Shown: piece after piece, positions 2,717 to 27,190 of the stretch
Layout of the letters: each line of letters begins with the position of its first letter
Position numbering within the stretch: position 1 is the stretch's first letter
Virus record (IMG/VR): IMGVR_UViG_3300020000_000038
Coordinates: 1 to 39,547 of that record
Origin: a virus
Length of the DNA: 39,547 nucleotides
Direction: 5' to 3' (one strand)
Made by a program: the position numbers and the translations under genes
The notes under the pieces: model-generated
What the model was told of the DNA's origin: nothing
Seen by the model: the letters and a program-made list of their open reading frames with translations, nothing else
Databases searched by the model: none

Positions 2717-4618
2717 TCATTTGTTTATTTTAATAAACTCACCACTTGAAAATTGTCCTTCTTGAAAATCAACTTTATTACATACATAATACGCATTTTC
2801 CTGTTTGAAATAAACAGGGCGTGTTAAATCCAAACCTAAAAAATCAACCTCAGTTACATTTAATTGAATATTATGGATTCTAAAATTTGTAAAAATTTTT
2901 TGATATTCTGAATAATAATTAAATATAGCCTCTTCGAATAAAGTATTTGTGTTTATCCCAATTGGAATACTGGAAACAACCGTTTCATCCTGTAATTTTT
3001 CAGATATTAATTTAAAGGAATCTGTTATTATATTTTTACGAATGAAATAGAAACGACCAGACAAACCTTTATAGCTTATTTCCACAACACCATTATTATC
3101 TTTTGGTTCGGCCTCCCATATTTTATATTGATTAGTACTAAATCCCAGAAAATTTGTAACTATTTTTTTATCAGGTGCATAAATTTTAGATTGTACTAAT
3201 ATTTTTTGATCTTCTAAGTTTTTATTATACATGTACAAATAGCCATCGCCAGAAGTATCGGTATCTACATTGTTTTTTAATTTAAAAATATTTTTTTGGG
3301 CGTAGTCATTTTGATAAATTTCTCCTTTTCGTTCTATAAAACAATGTGAATAATCCTGAGCAAAACTAAAATCCACTCTATTGCTTAAAGGAATGAAATT
3401 AACAGTATTAGTCTCTTTATTATAAACTGGTGTTAAACCAGTTCGCCAAATTTGTTCTTTAATAAAATCAGTTATTAAAAAGTCTTTAAATTCATTTTGC
3501 AAGGACGTAGTGCCTAAATCTGTTTTAGATATTAAAAAATCAGTATGATGATGATGCCATAAATAAAATCGGTATGCCATATTGCTTACATACTGAGCTG
3601 ATTGGATTCTTACTTCTATTATATCCCCTTTGTCGCATGCATGGTTAAATATTACTTCTCGATCTAAACCGACTTGATCGCCCGGCAATTCCCCTCCTAT
3701 TAAAGTTCCTATTATAATTCCGTTTTTTAAAATATAAACATATACATCAAAATAAATACTTGATGAATGAACGAAAAATTTATATTCCGCATACATTGCT
3801 ATTTTAAGATTAAAATTATAAGTTGTTGATTCTGGTATTACATATTTCCAGTTATCAATTAAATTTCCTTCTATAATAATATCCGAATCCCAAAAATAAT
3901 TATATGTTGGTTCTGGTATTCCTGCAATTGTAGTGCGTCTATTGGTTATGTATAGACCTTTATTTAATGTAGCTATCAATTCGTCGGACTGTCCTTCTGA
4001 CACATCTTTTGGATAGGTAATATAAAGACCATCTAAATAATCTAAATAAGTATAATCACAATTAAATCCAAATGTTGAAAATATTAATTCCCAAAGTTTT
4101 TTAATAGAAAAACAAGGTGTTAAATAATCAATATTTATTCCATCTTCAAACAAGGTTTTCCCCCCATAGTCTGCAATTATGTACTGATAATAATCATTAG
4201 TAAAGCTATCCACAACAGTGTCTAATGTTTTTTCATGATTAAAATTAGATAAGTCTAAGTCTTTCCCTAACGTTCTGTTTTGAATAGCTTTAAAAAAATC
4301 AATCATACCATCAACAATCCCGCCTTTGTAATTATTTTCAGTGCTAGCAACATTATACCATCCTTTTGATATTAAATCAAAGCCATGAACTTTTAATGTA
4401 GCTTCATTTTTTATATATGGCATTTGCGAACTGTCTCCGCTTATACCTAAGAATTGCATAGTTTGTGTGTTTGCTGGTGTTTTTTCAAATTCAAACGAAT
4501 TTGTATAGGAACATGATACTACGGCTAAATCAAAAATGTCTGAAATTTGTTTAGTGTATTTTATTGCTGTTCCTTTTGGAAGCTCTATCTTATTATTATT
4601 AATTGTTAATTCGCCCAT
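2717..4618 (-). CDS. Large tail/baseplate protein, 633 aa
   Basis: Probable tail-tip or baseplate hub protein, inferred from its size and its position directly before the tape measure. The sequence is beta-rich and aromatic, with no signal peptide or membrane segment. It opens with MGELTINNNKIELPKG and has a central Thr/Tyr-rich part including a run of four histidines near residues 355-358. I recognise no catalytic motif. Its start overlaps the end of the 286-aa gene by 13 bases, which implies translational coupling. A distal-tail or Tal-like role is plausible but rests on context alone. Confidence 0.65.
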   Translation of the reverse strand: MGELTINNNKIELPKGTAIKYTKQISDIFDLAVVSCSYTNSFEFEKTPANTQTMQFLGISGDSSQMPYIKNEATLKVHGFDLISKGWYNVASTENNYKGGIVDGMIDFFKAIQNRTLGKDLDLSNFNHEKTLDTVVDSFTNDYYQYIIADYGGKTLFEDGINIDYLTPCFSIKKLWELIFSTFGFNCDYTYLDYLDGLYITYPKDVSEGQSDELIATLNKGLYITNRRTTIAGIPEPTYNYFWDSDIIIEGNLIDNWKYVIPESTTYNFNLKIAMYAEYKFFVHSSSIYFDVYVYILKNGIIIGTLIGGELPGDQVGLDREVIFNHACDKGDIIEVRIQSAQYVSNMAYRFYLWHHHHTDFLISKTDLGTTSLQNEFKDFLITDFIKEQIWRTGLTPVYNKETNTVNFIPLSNRVDFSFAQDYSHCFIERKGEIYQNDYAQKNIFKLKNNVDTDTSGDGYLYMYNKNLEDQKILVQSKIYAPDKKIVTNFLGFSTNQYKIWEAEPKDNNGVVEISYKGLSGRFYFIRKNIITDSFKLISEKLQDETVVSSIPIGINTNTLFEEAIFNYYSEYQKIFTNFRIHNIQLNVTEVDFLGLDLTRPVYFKQENAYYVCNKVDFQEGQFSSGEFIKINK

Positions 4619-19366: not shown

Positions 19367-20512
19367 TTATTCTTGTAATTGCGGCGTTCTGTGGTGCTGA
19401 TTTGGGGTTTCTGAAAACAAATCAGCACCGTGTTTTTGTTTTTTAAACCATTCAAAGAAATTTCGTTTGAATTGATTAAAAGAAAGATTGTTTAGATCAT
19501 CGTCTGAAATTAATTGGCCTGCATTGGCTAATGAATTTTGATAAAAACTTATTTCATTGTAAACAGCCTGAGAATTAAATTCAAATGGGTGGTTGCATTC
19601 TTTGTTAAATTTAATCCTAGCCGTTTCCAGTGCGCTGGCATCCGCTTGTAACTGCTCAACAAATCCCCGTGTTTTTTTATTGAAATTTTCAATAAGCTTT
19701 TCTCGTTGTTCCTTCATTTTTGGCGATGTATTTAAAACCGCTGATTTGGGTTGCGCTGATTTGAATGGCTTTTCTGAAAATTCATTTTCAACCCACTTAG
19801 GAACTAAATTTTGCCACTTCACAATTTTTTGGCCTCTGGCTTTGGTCCATCCTACGGATTCCCAATGATTGAAAAAGTTTTCAGCACTGGCTTTTATATT
19901 TCCTTTTTGAAAAAACAAAATAATATCATTGAGGGTGGGTGGCAAAAAATTTTCTTTTTGCCCACTCTCAATCTTTATTGTTTTATTATTTGTTTTATTA
20001 TCTGGTATTGTATTTACCATTTGGGATATTGACATTTTACCATTTGGTAAATTCTCATTTTCCTTTTTGGTATCTTCCATTTTCCCAAATGGTAAAATGC
20101 AATTTTCCTGCAAAAATGAATCAAATTGTTCGTTTGCCCCCTCAATATATCCATTTTCTAAAACAACTAAAGCAGGAGTTTTTAAAGTTAATTTCTTTTC
20201 TCTAATAAGAGGTTCATTGATACAATACCATTTGGTTCGGTCAAAATGTAATTTGTTATAATTTCCGCTTATTAAAACACCTTCTTTTTCCAACTTTATC
20301 AAAATAGTTGAAATCTGTTTTTCTGAAAAATAAGGGTAATATTGTTTGAATCCAGATATACTGTTGTAAGTCCAGTAATGGCCATCGTGGAAATTACGAT
20401 TGCTAGTTTTATTTTTAAAAATCCAAGAACGAATGTGATTTAAAATAACAGAACCATTAACACCAAATAATGTAGCTTCATCTACATCGAAATAATTTAA
20501 TTTAGTACTCAT
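19367..20512 (-). CDS. Replication initiator with N-terminal winged helix (phage O-like)
   Basis: 381 aa. Residues about 1-115 form a winged-helix-like domain: VNGSVILNHIRSWIFKNKTS, then HDGHYWTYNSISGFKQYYPY, FSEKQISTILIKLEKEGVLI and DRTKWYCINE. This matches replication initiators of the phage O/DnaD-like type. A Lys/Asn-rich linker follows and then a helical C-terminal domain (VGWTKARGQKIVKWQNLVP). The coding sequence carries four TACCATTTGG motifs, so the origin may lie inside the gene, as in lambda O. The start is immediately downstream of a promoter-rich intergenic region. Confidence 0.75.
   Translation of the reverse strand: MSTKLNYFDVDEATLFGVNGSVILNHIRSWIFKNKTSNRNFHDGHYWTYNSISGFKQYYPYFSEKQISTILIKLEKEGVLISGNYNKLHFDRTKWYCINEPLIREKKLTLKTPALVVLENGYIEGANEQFDSFLQENCILPFGKMEDTKKENENLPNGKMSISQMVNTIPDNKTNNKTIKIESGQKENFLPPTLNDIILFFQKGNIKASAENFFNHWESVGWTKARGQKIVKWQNLVPKWVENEFSEKPFKSAQPKSAVLNTSPKMKEQREKLIENFNKKTRGFVEQLQADASALETARIKFNKECNHPFEFNSQAVYNEISFYQNSLANAGQLISDDDLNNLSFNQFKRNFFEWFKKQKHGADLFSETPNQHHRTPQLQE
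19929..20235. repeat. Possible origin: iterons, AT-rich tract and hairpin inside the rep gene
   Basis: TACCATTTGG occurs at 20015-20024, 20038-20047, 20085-20094 (reverse orientation) and 20226-20235. Three of the copies are longer (TTTACCATTTGG). The motif is read in different reading frames in the copies, so it is not explained by a protein repeat. Next to it is a 40-bp tract almost without G or C (19973-20012), and beyond that an imperfect hairpin, TTGAGGGTGGG / CCCACTCTCAA (19929-19971). Iterons next to an AT-rich element inside an initiator gene are the lambda-type origin layout. Confidence 0.5.
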
Positions 20513-20548: not shown

Positions 20549-20579
20549 TTTGCATAACTCACCAAATTCACTATTTTTG
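20549..20579 (+). promoter_or_regulatory. Plus-strand promoter for a small RNA
   Basis: TTTG (20549-20552), 19 bases, TATTTTTG (20572-20579): a full match to the consensus, pointing away from rep. No ORF follows, so it probably drives the non-coding transcript at 20586-20782. CATTTGCA at 20547-20554 and its reverse complement at 20578-20585 bracket the promoter. Confidence 0.75.
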
Positions 20580-20591
20580 CAAATGGGAAAA

Positions 20592-20627
20592 TAGGTTGTG
20601 AAATCGGGTTAGGTTGTGAAATCGGGT
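20592..20627. repeat. Tandem repeat of 18 bp, two exact copies
   Basis: TAGGTTGTGAAATCGGGT at 20592-20609 and 20610-20627, in direct tandem. It lies just downstream of the plus-strand promoter and so at the start of the proposed RNA. It could be a protein-binding site or an RNA element. Confidence 0.85.
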
Positions 20628-20645
20628 ATTGTTATACAACAATAC
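20626..20645. repeat. 8-bp inverted repeat after the tandem repeat
   Basis: GTATTGTT and AACAATAC around ATAC, 20 bp in all. It could form a small hairpin in the transcript or act as an operator. Confidence 0.6.
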
Positions 20646-20756
20646 GTTTGGGAATAGCTTACTAAAAAGCTTCCGGATTTTAATAAGCAACGGTTTTAAT
20701 CTTTTTTTCTAAATTGGAGTGCCTGCCAAGAAACCCAAATCAAAAAATTTAAATTT

Positions 20757-20782
20757 AAGAGGCTTTAACGCCTCTTTTTTTT
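20757..20782 (+). terminator. Plus-strand intrinsic terminator
   Basis: AAGAGGC-type stem pairing with GCCTCTT across TTTAAC, followed by a run of eight T on the plus strand. The minus direction lacks a comparable T run, so it terminates plus-strand transcription. Confidence 0.8.
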
Positions 20783-20904
20783 GTGCCTATATTTTTTCAT
20801 TTTAACATATCATTAATTATTTAACTTATTTTTTTTTGAAAGGACAATAAAATTAATAAATTACTTTCAATCATTTAATTTTCAGCCTGTTAATTTTTGG
20901 GCAT

Positions 20905-21013
20905 AAAAAAACCTCCAATTTAAAGAGGCGTAGGGAATCTTTAAATGAAGGTGTTTTATGTCTTACAAACGGCTCAAAACTGTAAATCAATACAGTTCCT
21001 ACGCCGTTTTGAT
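20905..21013 (-). ncRNA. Candidate structured small RNA of about 110 nt
   Basis: A strong promoter (21019-21049) precedes it. The RNA can form AAACGGC/GCCGTTT (20967-20973 with 21003-21009) enclosing AACTGTA/TACAGTT (20978-20984 with 20991-20997). A terminator-like stem (20911-20925 with 20939-20952) is followed by seven T. The 13-base loop of that stem contains GGCGTAGGGAA in plus-strand reading, which pairs with TTCCTACGCC at 20996-21005, giving a pseudoknot or an alternative fold that competes with the first stem. No ORF is present. This looks like a designed regulatory RNA, not random sequence. Confidence 0.6.
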
Positions 21014-21018
21014 TTGGA

Positions 21019-21049
21019 CAAATATAAAATCATTTTTTGAAATACAAAA
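21019..21049 (-). promoter_or_regulatory. Promoter for the structured RNA
   Basis: Minus strand TTTTG (21045-21049), 18 bases, TATATTTG (21019-21026): full -7 match and a good -33 box. The predicted transcription start, around 21012, falls just before the structured segment. Confidence 0.75.
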
Positions 21050-21073: not shown

Positions 21074-21340
21074 TTATAAAATTTTAATAAGTCCAGTGCC
21101 ATCAAAATAAACATCTGCAACAATCAATGTCCCGCTATCATTATCCATTATTCCAGCTTTAATAATATTTTTTACATTAGAATCAAATTCTTTTTGTTTA
21201 ACAAAAATTGCGTGTACCGAATTAATTTCATCAATAATCAGGTCAATAAGCTTTTGATCTGTAGTAATAATTTTAATCCCAAAATATCGAATCCCGACTT
21301 CTGTCATGCATTTATAATAAAAATCACAATCAATCTTCAT
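21074..21340 (-). CDS. Hypothetical protein, 88 aa
   Basis: 88 aa, beta-rich, with IDCDFYYKCMTEVGIRYFGI at the start and GTLIVADVYFDGTGLIKIL at the end. It overlaps the end of the HNH gene by 11 bases. Not recognised. Confidence 0.5.
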   Translation of the reverse strand: MKIDCDFYYKCMTEVGIRYFGIKIITTDQKLIDLIIDEINSVHAIFVKQKEFDSNVKNIIKAGIMDNDSGTLIVADVYFDGTGLIKIL

Positions 21341-22214: not shown

Positions 22215-22397
22215 ATGTCTCAAATAGTAAATCTTGAAATTACAAAAGACGAAGCAATTTTGCTTAACTCTTGTCTTAATGCATGGAAAGTTATTATGTT
22301 TAAAGGAACCAGCGAAGACAAAGAAATAGAACAACAGGCAAAGGAAAACGGGATTACATTACAGCAAATTCAATCTAAAATACCTAAATTTATCTAA
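22215..22397 (+). CDS. Small plus-strand protein, 60 aa
   Basis: One of only two plus-strand genes in the window. Begins MSQIVNLEITKDEAILLNSC and is helical and acidic; the end reads LQQIQSKIPKFI. It has its own promoter element and its own intrinsic terminator (22425-22457). Isolation on the other strand is typical of genes expressed in the lysogen, but I do not recognise it as a repressor. Confidence 0.6.
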   Translation: MSQIVNLEITKDEAILLNSCLNAWKVIMFKGTSEDKEIEQQAKENGITLQQIQSKIPKFI

Positions 22398-22465: not shown

Positions 22466-22855
22466 TTATATTTTTGATTTTGGAACGCTTATCAACTCAC
22501 CATGTGACTTTTCGTATTGCGTAATTGTTTTTTTTAAAGCCGAATTAATAATATCGGTAAGCGTTGTCAGTTCGTGGTGAGCCATAATCTTAATTTTTTT
22601 ATGTATTTCCTTAGATGTTAAAAGCGTTACCCTACTGTTATACTCAGTAACTTCTTTTTTAGCTTTTTCAACTGGTTTTTTTGTTTCTATTTCTTCAATA
22701 GACATATTGCTTACATGGCTAATTTTTGGAGTTTCTGTTTTTTGATCTTCATAATGTAAAACCGCTGGGATTTCCTTTGCTCCACGATCGCCAAAAAGAG
22801 CCTCATAACCGCTAGTCATATCCTTTGTTTTGTCTTTTGTGATAGTTGGTTTCAT
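22466..22855 (-). CDS. Ribbon-helix-helix partition partner (ParB-like) candidate
   Basis: 129 aa. The N-terminal half is charged and probably disordered. The C-terminal 55 residues (RVTLLTSKEIHKKIKIMAHH followed by LTDIINSALKKTI) look like a ribbon-helix-helix DNA-binding domain. Its start overlaps the ParA stop by 4 bases, the usual parAB arrangement. It is the probable centromere-binding protein for the repeat arrays at 24178-24413. Assignment rests on context and fold pattern. Confidence 0.6.
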   Translation of the reverse strand: MKPTITKDKTKDMTSGYEALFGDRGAKEIPAVLHYEDQKTETPKISHVSNMSIEEIETKKPVEKAKKEVTEYNSRVTLLTSKEIHKKIKIMAHHELTTLTDIINSALKKTITQYEKSHGELISVPKSKI

Positions 22856-23604
22856 TTTTTATGTCTTTTAATGATTTCTTTTGAAAGTTCTTTGTAATCC
22901 TCAGCACCGTTGCTAGCTGGGTTGTATCTGAAAATATCCTGTTGAAATGCTGGTGCTTCTGCTAATGAGACATTATCTCTAATTTTAGATTCAAACAGTT
23001 CGTTTGGAAAATATTTAGTTACAATATCCAATGTTTTTTTGTTTAACTTTTTCCTACTATCGAATTGAGTTAAGAAAACGCCGCCAACGATTAAATTTGG
23101 GTTTAGCCTTTTTGTCATTAGCTTAATTGTGTTTATCAGTTCCGATAAACCTTGTGTAGCTAAAAATTCAGACTGCAACGGAATGATTATTTCATCTGAG
23201 GCCGTGAACGCATTGAAAGTTAAAAGCCCCATCGCTGGCGGGCAGTCAATCAAAATATAATCGTAATTGTGTTTTATTGGGTCAATGATTTCTTTTAAAT
23301 AAAATTCCCGATCCATTTTAGTACTAAGTTGAATTTCAATAGCTGCTAAATCAATTGTGGCAGGTATTAAATAAAAGCCTTTCAATATTTCAATTGGCTG
23401 TATTTTATAATGCCCACACAAAGCACCATAAATGTTATTTTCTGCTTTCACAACTCCTAAAGATAGACTTAACGAGGATTGCGGGTCTAGGTCTATAATT
23501 AATACTTTTTTCTTTAATTGGTTTAAGGCTGAGCCAATGTTTATTGTTGAAGTGGTCTTTCCCACGCCTCCCTTAGCATTCGACAAGGATAAAATTTTCG
23601 TCAT
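22852..23604 (-). CDS. parA: ParA partition ATPase
   Basis: 250 aa. Deviant Walker A at residues 11-18 (KGGVGKTT) in MTKILSLSNAKGGVGKTT, then VLIIDLDPQSSLS and YILIDCPPAMG. It lacks an N-terminal HTH, so it is the short (type Ib) class. It moves plasmid copies to daughter cells together with a DNA-binding partner, here the adjacent RHH protein. It supports maintenance as an extrachromosomal element. Confidence 0.95.
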   Translation of the reverse strand: MTKILSLSNAKGGVGKTTSTINIGSALNQLKKKVLIIDLDPQSSLSLSLGVVKAENNIYGALCGHYKIQPIEILKGFYLIPATIDLAAIEIQLSTKMDREFYLKEIIDPIKHNYDYILIDCPPAMGLLTFNAFTASDEIIIPLQSEFLATQGLSELINTIKLMTKRLNPNLIVGGVFLTQFDSRKKLNKKTLDIVTKYFPNELFESKIRDNVSLAEAPAFQQDIFRYNPASNGAEDYKELSKEIIKRHKK

Positions 23605-26171: not shown

Positions 26172-26612
26172 TTAAAGGTTTAAATAAATATTATTTGATT
26201 TATGATCCATTTCTATTTCGTATTTTGTAAGCTCTACATCAGGCATGTTACAAACATTATTATATTCACAATTAAAAATAGGCTTAAATTTCTTAATTAA
26301 AAAAATCTCAACTATTTCAACCAAATCGCTTTCAATTTCACAAAAAGAAAAATATTTATAATATTCCCTTTTTGCCAAAGTCAATCTGTTTTCATATTTT
26401 TCAAAATCTTCAATCCTATCAAATTTTAAAAATAAGTGTTTTCTTAGTCGTTGTCTGATGCAATTTTTTGATTTTCCAACATAAAGAAGTTCTTTGCTTT
26501 GATTATAAAAAAAATAACAGCCCTTTGTATTTCCTTTCGGCAAATTTTTTTCTGAAACTTCCAACAATCCAGAAAAATTGTCAATCTCATATTCAAGTTT
26601 TAATCCTATCAT
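26172..26612 (-). CDS. GIY-YIG endonuclease
   Basis: 146 aa. The GIY-YIG-like domain begins CYFFYNQSKELLYVGKSKNC with the following IRQRLRKHL. A later Glu in LVEIVEIFLIKKFKPIFN completes the usual site. The first residue of the motif is Cys instead of Gly, so it is slightly degenerate. It starts in the stop codon of the recombinase (ATGA). Confidence 0.75.
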   Translation of the reverse strand: MIGLKLEYEIDNFSGLLEVSEKNLPKGNTKGCYFFYNQSKELLYVGKSKNCIRQRLRKHLFLKFDRIEDFEKYENRLTLAKREYYKYFSFCEIESDLVEIVEIFLIKKFKPIFNCEYNNVCNMPDVELTKYEIEMDHKSNNIYLNL

Positions 26613-27190
26613 TTTTTTCTTTTTCCGCTTAAGTTTAAATATAATTCGTTCAGTTCCTCTTGCCTAATACCTAAATAAGTTCTGGTCGTTTTTAAATCCC
26701 TATGATTAAATAAATCCATTAAGTAAATCAAACTTTTTTCACTTTCATTATTATTTTTAAATATTCTACGCCCAAAAGATTTTCTAAAAGTATGAGTACT
26801 GATATTTAACCCCTTTTTGATATCATCGGCAAAAATTTCTTTGAAAGTAGAATTTAGATGCTGGACTGAAACAACGGTTTTCTTTTTGCTCAAAAAAGGA
26901 CTGCCAGTATATTCAGGTTTTATGATTTCGTGTATTTCATCATTAAAGGCAATCGTTTTTTTCTTCTTGGTTTTTTTCTCAATAATGTTAATTGTTTTGT
27001 TTCTTAAATCTTCCCACGTTAACGGCAAAACATCTGAGGAACGCAAGCCAGTATTTGTTGCAACAACTATGTAATTTGAAATGTATTTTGTTTTTGGGTC
27101 TTTTGACAAATCACGAGCAACACCCATTAAATAATTATAATCCAAATAATCTGTTTTTGTTTCCTTTTTTTTCTTTTTCGTTGTTTCCAT
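26609..27190 (-). CDS. Short tyrosine recombinase (catalytic domain only)
   Basis: 193 aa, while integrases usually have 300-400. The catalytic domain is complete: R50 in NTGLRSSDVL, Lys in the KKTKKKK segment, H133-x-x-R136 in THTFRKSFGRR, H163 in LFNHRD and the nucleophile Y172 in RTYLGI. The N-terminal core-binding domain is absent; only a basic leader remains. Next to it lie four TAATATTCA repeats. It could be a multimer resolvase for a plasmid-like phage or a reduced integrase. Confidence 0.85.
   Translation of the reverse strand: METTKKKKKETKTDYLDYNYLMGVARDLSKDPKTKYISNYIVVATNTGLRSSDVLPLTWEDLRNKTINIIEKKTKKKKTIAFNDEIHEIIKPEYTGSPFLSKKKTVVSVQHLNSTFKEIFADDIKKGLNISTHTFRKSFGRRIFKNNNESEKSLIYLMDLFNHRDLKTTRTYLGIRQEELNELYLNLSGKRKK

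Follow-up and report, generated by a model that had tools for sequence, protein, structure and literature searches.

The window, meaning the whole stretch of DNA analysed here, is IMG/VR virus record IMGVR_UViG_3300020000_000038 (39,547 bases). Alongside structural phage genes (terminase, portal and head protease), it encodes RecT, an integrase, ParA and a replication initiation protein (PHROG 11233). Almost every gene of the window is carried on the minus strand. The site under study, which we call RNA-A, is intergenic. An earlier note had placed it between the rep gene and an HNH gene; the rep side is as described (19367-20512), and the other flank is an 88-aa gene (21074-21340) that itself adjoins the HNH/NUMOD4 gene. 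The element had also been described as having no ORF, and the ORFs across it are at most 39 aa. The main features are:

19367-20512, minus strand: rep, replication initiation protein (PHROG 11233, E = 9e-30), on the strand of RNA-A and downstream of it
22852-23604 and 26609-27190, minus strand: ParA and integrase, in a phage that also has its own Rep
20905-21014, minus strand: RNA-A, a structured RNA of ~110 nt, running from a predicted +1 at ~21014 through the T run
21019-21047, minus strand: promoter, with TTG in the −33 region (21047-21045), an 18-nt spacer and the −7 box TATATTTG (21026-21019; consensus TAnnTTTG)

The combination of ParA, integrase and its own Rep in one phage suggests a phage-plasmid or an integrating element; the phage probably exists as a plasmid in Bacteroidota hosts. 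To our knowledge, replication control has hardly been described for Bacteroidota phages that may live as plasmids.

We assessed which strand encodes the RNA and where the transcript is likely to begin. The flavobacterial sigma-A −7 box is TAnnTTTG and spans −12 to −5 (PMC9723704). Because the box covers these positions, RNA-A is predicted to start near 21014, ~5 nt past TATATTTG, with AAUCAAAACGG as its 5' sequence. The full promoter claimed in the earlier note is thus present, but it is of the Bacteroidota type; an E. coli-type promoter scan showed nothing unusual. The promoter, helices and terminator of that note were all found, and the strand, which it left unnamed, fits as the minus strand. 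We also considered the plus strand as the source of the RNA and rejected it. It folds (z = −4.6), as expected from the inverted repeats, but neither a promoter nor a terminator of its own is present there, and no plus-strand TAnnTTTG box reading into 20905-21014 was found. Searches for a tRNA or tmRNA were negative.

The minus-strand fold reached −37.0 kcal/mol (z = −5.3), and none of 200 shuffles folded equally well. Its elements are:

20967-21009, minus strand: P1 hairpin, lower stem AAACGGC/GCCGUUU (21009-21003 with 20973-20967) and upper stem 20999-20991 with 20984-20976
20905-20952, minus strand: P2, an intrinsic terminator, stem 20952-20938 with 20926-20911, loop UUCCCUACGCC (20937-20927) and U run 20911-20905 (T7)
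20998-21005, minus strand: 5' strand of P3 (a), GGCGUAGG, inside P1
20927-20934, minus strand: 3' strand of P3 (a'), CCUACGCC, in the terminator loop

P2 with its T7 run was also called independently as a minus-strand terminator. P3 is an 8-bp helix between the P2 loop (20934-20927) and the 5' arm of P1 (21005-20998). P3 and P1 are mutually exclusive because both use the same 5' segment (a). P3 also excludes the upper P2 stem, but the 7-bp lower part of P2 could form alongside it as a pseudoknot. Loop-to-upstream complementarity of at least 8 bases (matches of 8 to 10 nt) is rare: among 509 terminator-like sites from 380 kb of other loci, it occurred at 2.

Two related loci were used for comparison. 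L011 (contig IMGVR_UViG_3300023260_000003) was found by a Rep search; its Rep is 73% identical, and a similar RNA lies in the matching place (3300-3409). L076 (contig IMGVR_UViG_3300049491_000611), reached via a ParA search, holds a third copy of the RNA (3075-2964) beside a Rep that is 47% identical. Both homologs fold with z = −5.3, and both have a TAnnTTTG-type box in the matching position. Conserved in the window, L011 and L076 are this box, ATCAAAACGG at the predicted start, CCGTTT, AAAACACC and the GG-T6 terminator end. We compared forced folds at the moment when the loop segment has just been transcribed. P1 and P3 were nearly balanced, at −21.0 and −21.1 kcal/mol in the window, −19.4 and −21.0 in L011, and −21.7 and −23.1 in L076; the window values agree with the earlier proposal that the loop pairs with the 5' strand of the first stem, so that two folds compete. 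Once P2 is complete, P1+P2 is favoured (−34.7 to −40.6 vs −23 to −26 kcal/mol in the three phages), and in this fold a' is open within the 11-nt P2 loop.

Three side observations concern the proteins of these loci. The Reps of the window (19367-20512, minus strand) and L076 (1569-2615, minus strand) share their C-terminal part and differ in their N-terminal part; we read these different N-terminal parts beside the same RNA as an initiator domain swap. A conserved small gene of ~60 aa, opposed to the other genes, is present in the window (22215-22397, plus strand), L011 (1958-2140, minus strand) and L076 (3510-3692, plus strand); its window copy had no family match. A Cys-rich (zinc-finger-like) small protein is encoded at differing locations in L011 (3531-3758, plus strand), where it sits between RNA-A and rep, and in L076 (6643-6924, minus strand).

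To assess covariation, we counted P3 pairs on ungapped conserved blocks from the window, L011 and L076. The AAACGG/CCGUUU pairing of P1 is invariant in all three. The P3 strands have changed on both sides (GGCGUAGG/CCUACGCC, GGGUUAGG/CCUAACCC and GGCCUCGG/CCGAGGCC, respectively). P3 varies more than either P1 or the lower part of P2, yet it is always self-complementary. In P3, 3 of 8 pairs carried compensatory changes, and in the lower P2 stem 1 of 7 did (4/15 in total); 100% of cells were paired. The lower-stem change in L011 is U-A to G-C; P2 also shows a U-G to C-G change, which is G-U-compatible on the minus strand. Only 1 of 500 shuffles reached the covariation score, and slid controls gave at most one both-sided pair. 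Across the three phages, own a/a' pairing was −15 to −19 kcal/mol vs −3.5 to −9 for foreign pairing.

The earlier note had named absent covariation in the helices as the result that would speak against an RNA gene; P3 and P2 covary across the three phages. Its coherent RNA gene is upheld, in that promoter, helices and terminator are conserved together in all three. Covariation from three homologs is modest in depth but clean. Because of the compensatory changes, the conserved promoter and terminator, and the rarity of such loop complementarity in the background (2/509), the predicted transcript RNA-A is a genuine, evolutionarily conserved structured-RNA gene.

The leader between RNA-A and rep contains two further predicted features:

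20584-20784, plus strand: RNA-B (predicted, ~200 nt), antisense to the rep leader, with promoter TTG 20550-20552, N19 and TATTTTTG 20572-20579, and a terminator at 20757-20776 with a T run to 20784
20765-20800, minus strand: mini-ORF MKKYRHKKKRR, located in the rep leader and overlapping the RNA-B terminator at its end

The promoter and terminator of RNA-B are also present in L011 and L076, and the L011 terminator stem has a compensatory change. In the window, RNA-B contains two copies of GGTTGTGAAATCGGGT. The Lys/Arg-rich mini-ORF (10-11 codons) recurs in L011 at 3760 (plus strand; (GTG)KKYKNKKRDG) and in L076 at 2870 (minus strand; MKKCRHKKRG). RNA-B and the mini-ORF, together with Rep and ParA, suggest RNA-based replication control of a phage-plasmid.

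We searched more widely for relatives. No Rfam (release 15) family was found at the gathering threshold in the window, L011, L076 or L012, a more distant phage contig described below. Sub-threshold matches over RNA-A (E up to 10) were at chance level, with E of 0.14 or worse and scores far under gathering. Phages and plasmids searched by DNA similarity yielded no homolog. Matches to the pattern GGCGTAGG...CCTACGCC were coding, tRNA or unrelated only, and a pattern scan of genome contigs gave no real match among those listed. In linker and 5' pattern searches, L011 and L076 were the sole real matches amid chance ones. When 396 genomes from a single order, the one to which a Chryseobacterium genome belongs, were scanned with the covariance model under strict filters, 6 weak matches appeared in 5 genomes, and P3 was absent in the four matches that were inspected. 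Within the same 396 genomes, no RNA-A-like RNA was found near distant Rep relatives, and a ParA search gave hundreds of matches with no recognisable phage kin. The Bacteroides phage reps that we inspected are located inside operons. RNA-A is a covarying RNA family of rep-bearing, plasmid-like Bacteroidota phages, absent from Rfam and tied to their rep genes.

L012 is a phage contig of 70 kb; its Rep shares 37% identity with the query, and the contig gave weak covariance-model matches. At 3314-3590, immediately ahead of the rep operon, it holds a tandem pair of RNAs that each end in a terminator and share a scaffold. Each is preceded by a TAnnTTTG box, and each has a hairpin loop complementary to its terminator loop (GGUGAGAG/CUCUCACC and GUGGAAG/CUUCCAC), so the kissing loops differ in sequence. 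The next gene starts ~15 nt past the T run of the second RNA, and rep lies behind that gene. We treat these RNAs as having the same architecture as RNA-A, with homology unproven. With L012 included, own a/a' pairs ranged from −10 to −19 kcal/mol overall vs −2 to −9 for all cross pairs, and the two L012 paralogs were also orthogonal to each other.

The best explanation, which we favour tentatively at somewhat under an even chance, is that RNA-A is an attenuator-type RNA that controls rep by conditional transcription termination. Transcription would begin ~5 nt after TATATTTG, and the nascent a segment would be either held in P1 or paired with a' (P3). If a is kept in P1, the P2 terminator would form and an RNA of ~110 nt would be released. 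Should P3 form first, it would block the upper half of P2, and polymerase could continue through the rep leader into rep. We infer that rep is transcribed from the RNA-A promoter and that P3 is antiterminating, rather than stabilising a pseudoknot of the finished RNA. Attenuator-like behaviour is suggested because P1 and P3 are near-equal in the nascent RNA and P1+P2 is far better once the terminator is complete. All five RNAs (window, L011, L076 and the two in L012) precede a rep gene and share its strand. In the window, L011 and L076 alike, that strand shows no further TAnnTTTG box with a −33 element between RNA-A and rep, so rep may well be transcribed through RNA-A. Against this reading, ~390 nt separate the terminator from rep in the window, and a non-consensus rep promoter farther downstream of RNA-A is possible. 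In addition, P3 need not antiterminate, because it is compatible with the 7-bp lower stem of P2 in a pseudoknot. Overall, RNA-A probably helps set the amount of phage replication protein. The copy-number control raised in the earlier note is plausible, since the phage has Rep, ParA and integrase and the RNA always precedes rep; that part of its proposal stays an interpretation.

The main rival, which fits almost as well and which we regard as a serious possibility, is a free-standing trans-acting sRNA. The finished 110-nt RNA, with P3 as a pseudoknot, would bind phage or host mRNAs or a protein, and its adjacency to rep would reflect module linkage. The promoter and strong terminator of RNA-A are conserved together and would suit a finished sRNA equally well; the strong, stable fold and the separate promoters of the L012 tandem copies also speak for it. 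The conserved single-stranded AAUCAAAACGG and the linker ending AAAACACC are candidate binding sites. However, RNA-A is always beside rep, and the best trans target tested was the rep leader itself, through a striking 11-nt match (CCAAATCAAAA), part of which precedes the predicted start. Pairing in trans between RNA-A and either the rep leader or RNA-B was rejected as a candidate mechanism, as the energies were not consistently better than those of shuffles in the three phages.

A self-regulated form of the rep attenuator is unlikely on present evidence. Here, terminated RNA would accumulate with copy number, and its loop a' would bind a of the next nascent transcript and drive termination, with the variable P3 giving specificity between related elements. 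The open position of a' in the P1+P2 fold, the variability of P3 beyond P1 and the lower P2 stem with self-complementarity always retained, the orthogonal pairing between phages and between the L012 paralogs, and the plasmid state suggested by Rep and ParA are all consistent with such sensing. But any sequence-unconstrained helix would look alike, a is partly buried in P1, and the pattern comes from three homologs only. If self-sensing is true, one RNA species would do the work that in plasmids usually takes two, the leader of an mRNA and a distinct antisense RNA, and the fast-changing P3 would define incompatibility groups among phage-plasmids.

A DNA-level role, as an operator or replication-origin structure, is very improbable. 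The element does contain a nearly perfect inverted repeat of ~24 nt near rep, but a promoter and T-run terminator are conserved on one strand in all homologs, the P2 change from U-G to C-G is compatible with G-U pairing on the minus strand, and the L012 arms lie in separate hairpins. Least credible of all is that the upstream gene simply has an ordinary terminator whose complementarity arose by chance: a terminator is present and the upstream genes are on the same strand, but a promoter sits between gene and terminator, and the loop match, found at 2 of 509 background sites, occurs in all three homologs with compensatory changes, so that the covarying helices already disfavour it.

Several known systems bear comparison with this locus. 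In IncFII and IncI plasmids, rep is controlled by an antisense RNA and a leader peptide (CopA-tap-repA and Inc RNA-repY-repZ). The predicted antisense RNA-B over the rep leader and the conserved short ORF just before rep are similar, but this likeness concerns RNA-B and not RNA-A, and the host phylum and Rep family differ. The independent transcribed regions and Rfp sRNAs of Flavobacterium psychrophilum are, like RNA-A, short and structured, and belong to flavobacteria, which use TAnnTTTG promoters (PMC9723704); unlike RNA-A they are chromosomal, and they are likened here by description, not sequence.

A further parallel, which speaks for the attenuator reading, is with rep-leader attenuators of the pT181/pIP501 type. 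The pT181 plasmid attenuator follows the same principle, with its antiterminator inside a 5' hairpin, and an antisense RNA is complementary to that hairpin (PMC4878617). Set beside pT181 by architecture rather than sequence similarity, RNA-A likewise lies upstream of rep and has a 5' hairpin with a candidate antiterminator opposed to an intrinsic terminator (PMC4878617). Unlike the pT181 type, RNA-A has no antisense RNA gene opposite it; the predicted RNA-B covers a downstream part of the leader, with its predicted end at 20784. Because an antisense RNA to the 5' hairpin was not found, we describe RNA-A as working like a rep attenuator, not as being a pT181-type system. It also differs in the partner of its candidate antiterminating segment, which is the terminator loop and not the 5' strand of the terminator stem. 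This architecture, in which a terminator loop pairs with a 5' hairpin, offers a direct and simple way to test RNA-based control of copy number and, if P3 is the specificity element, a set of naturally orthogonal RNA switches.
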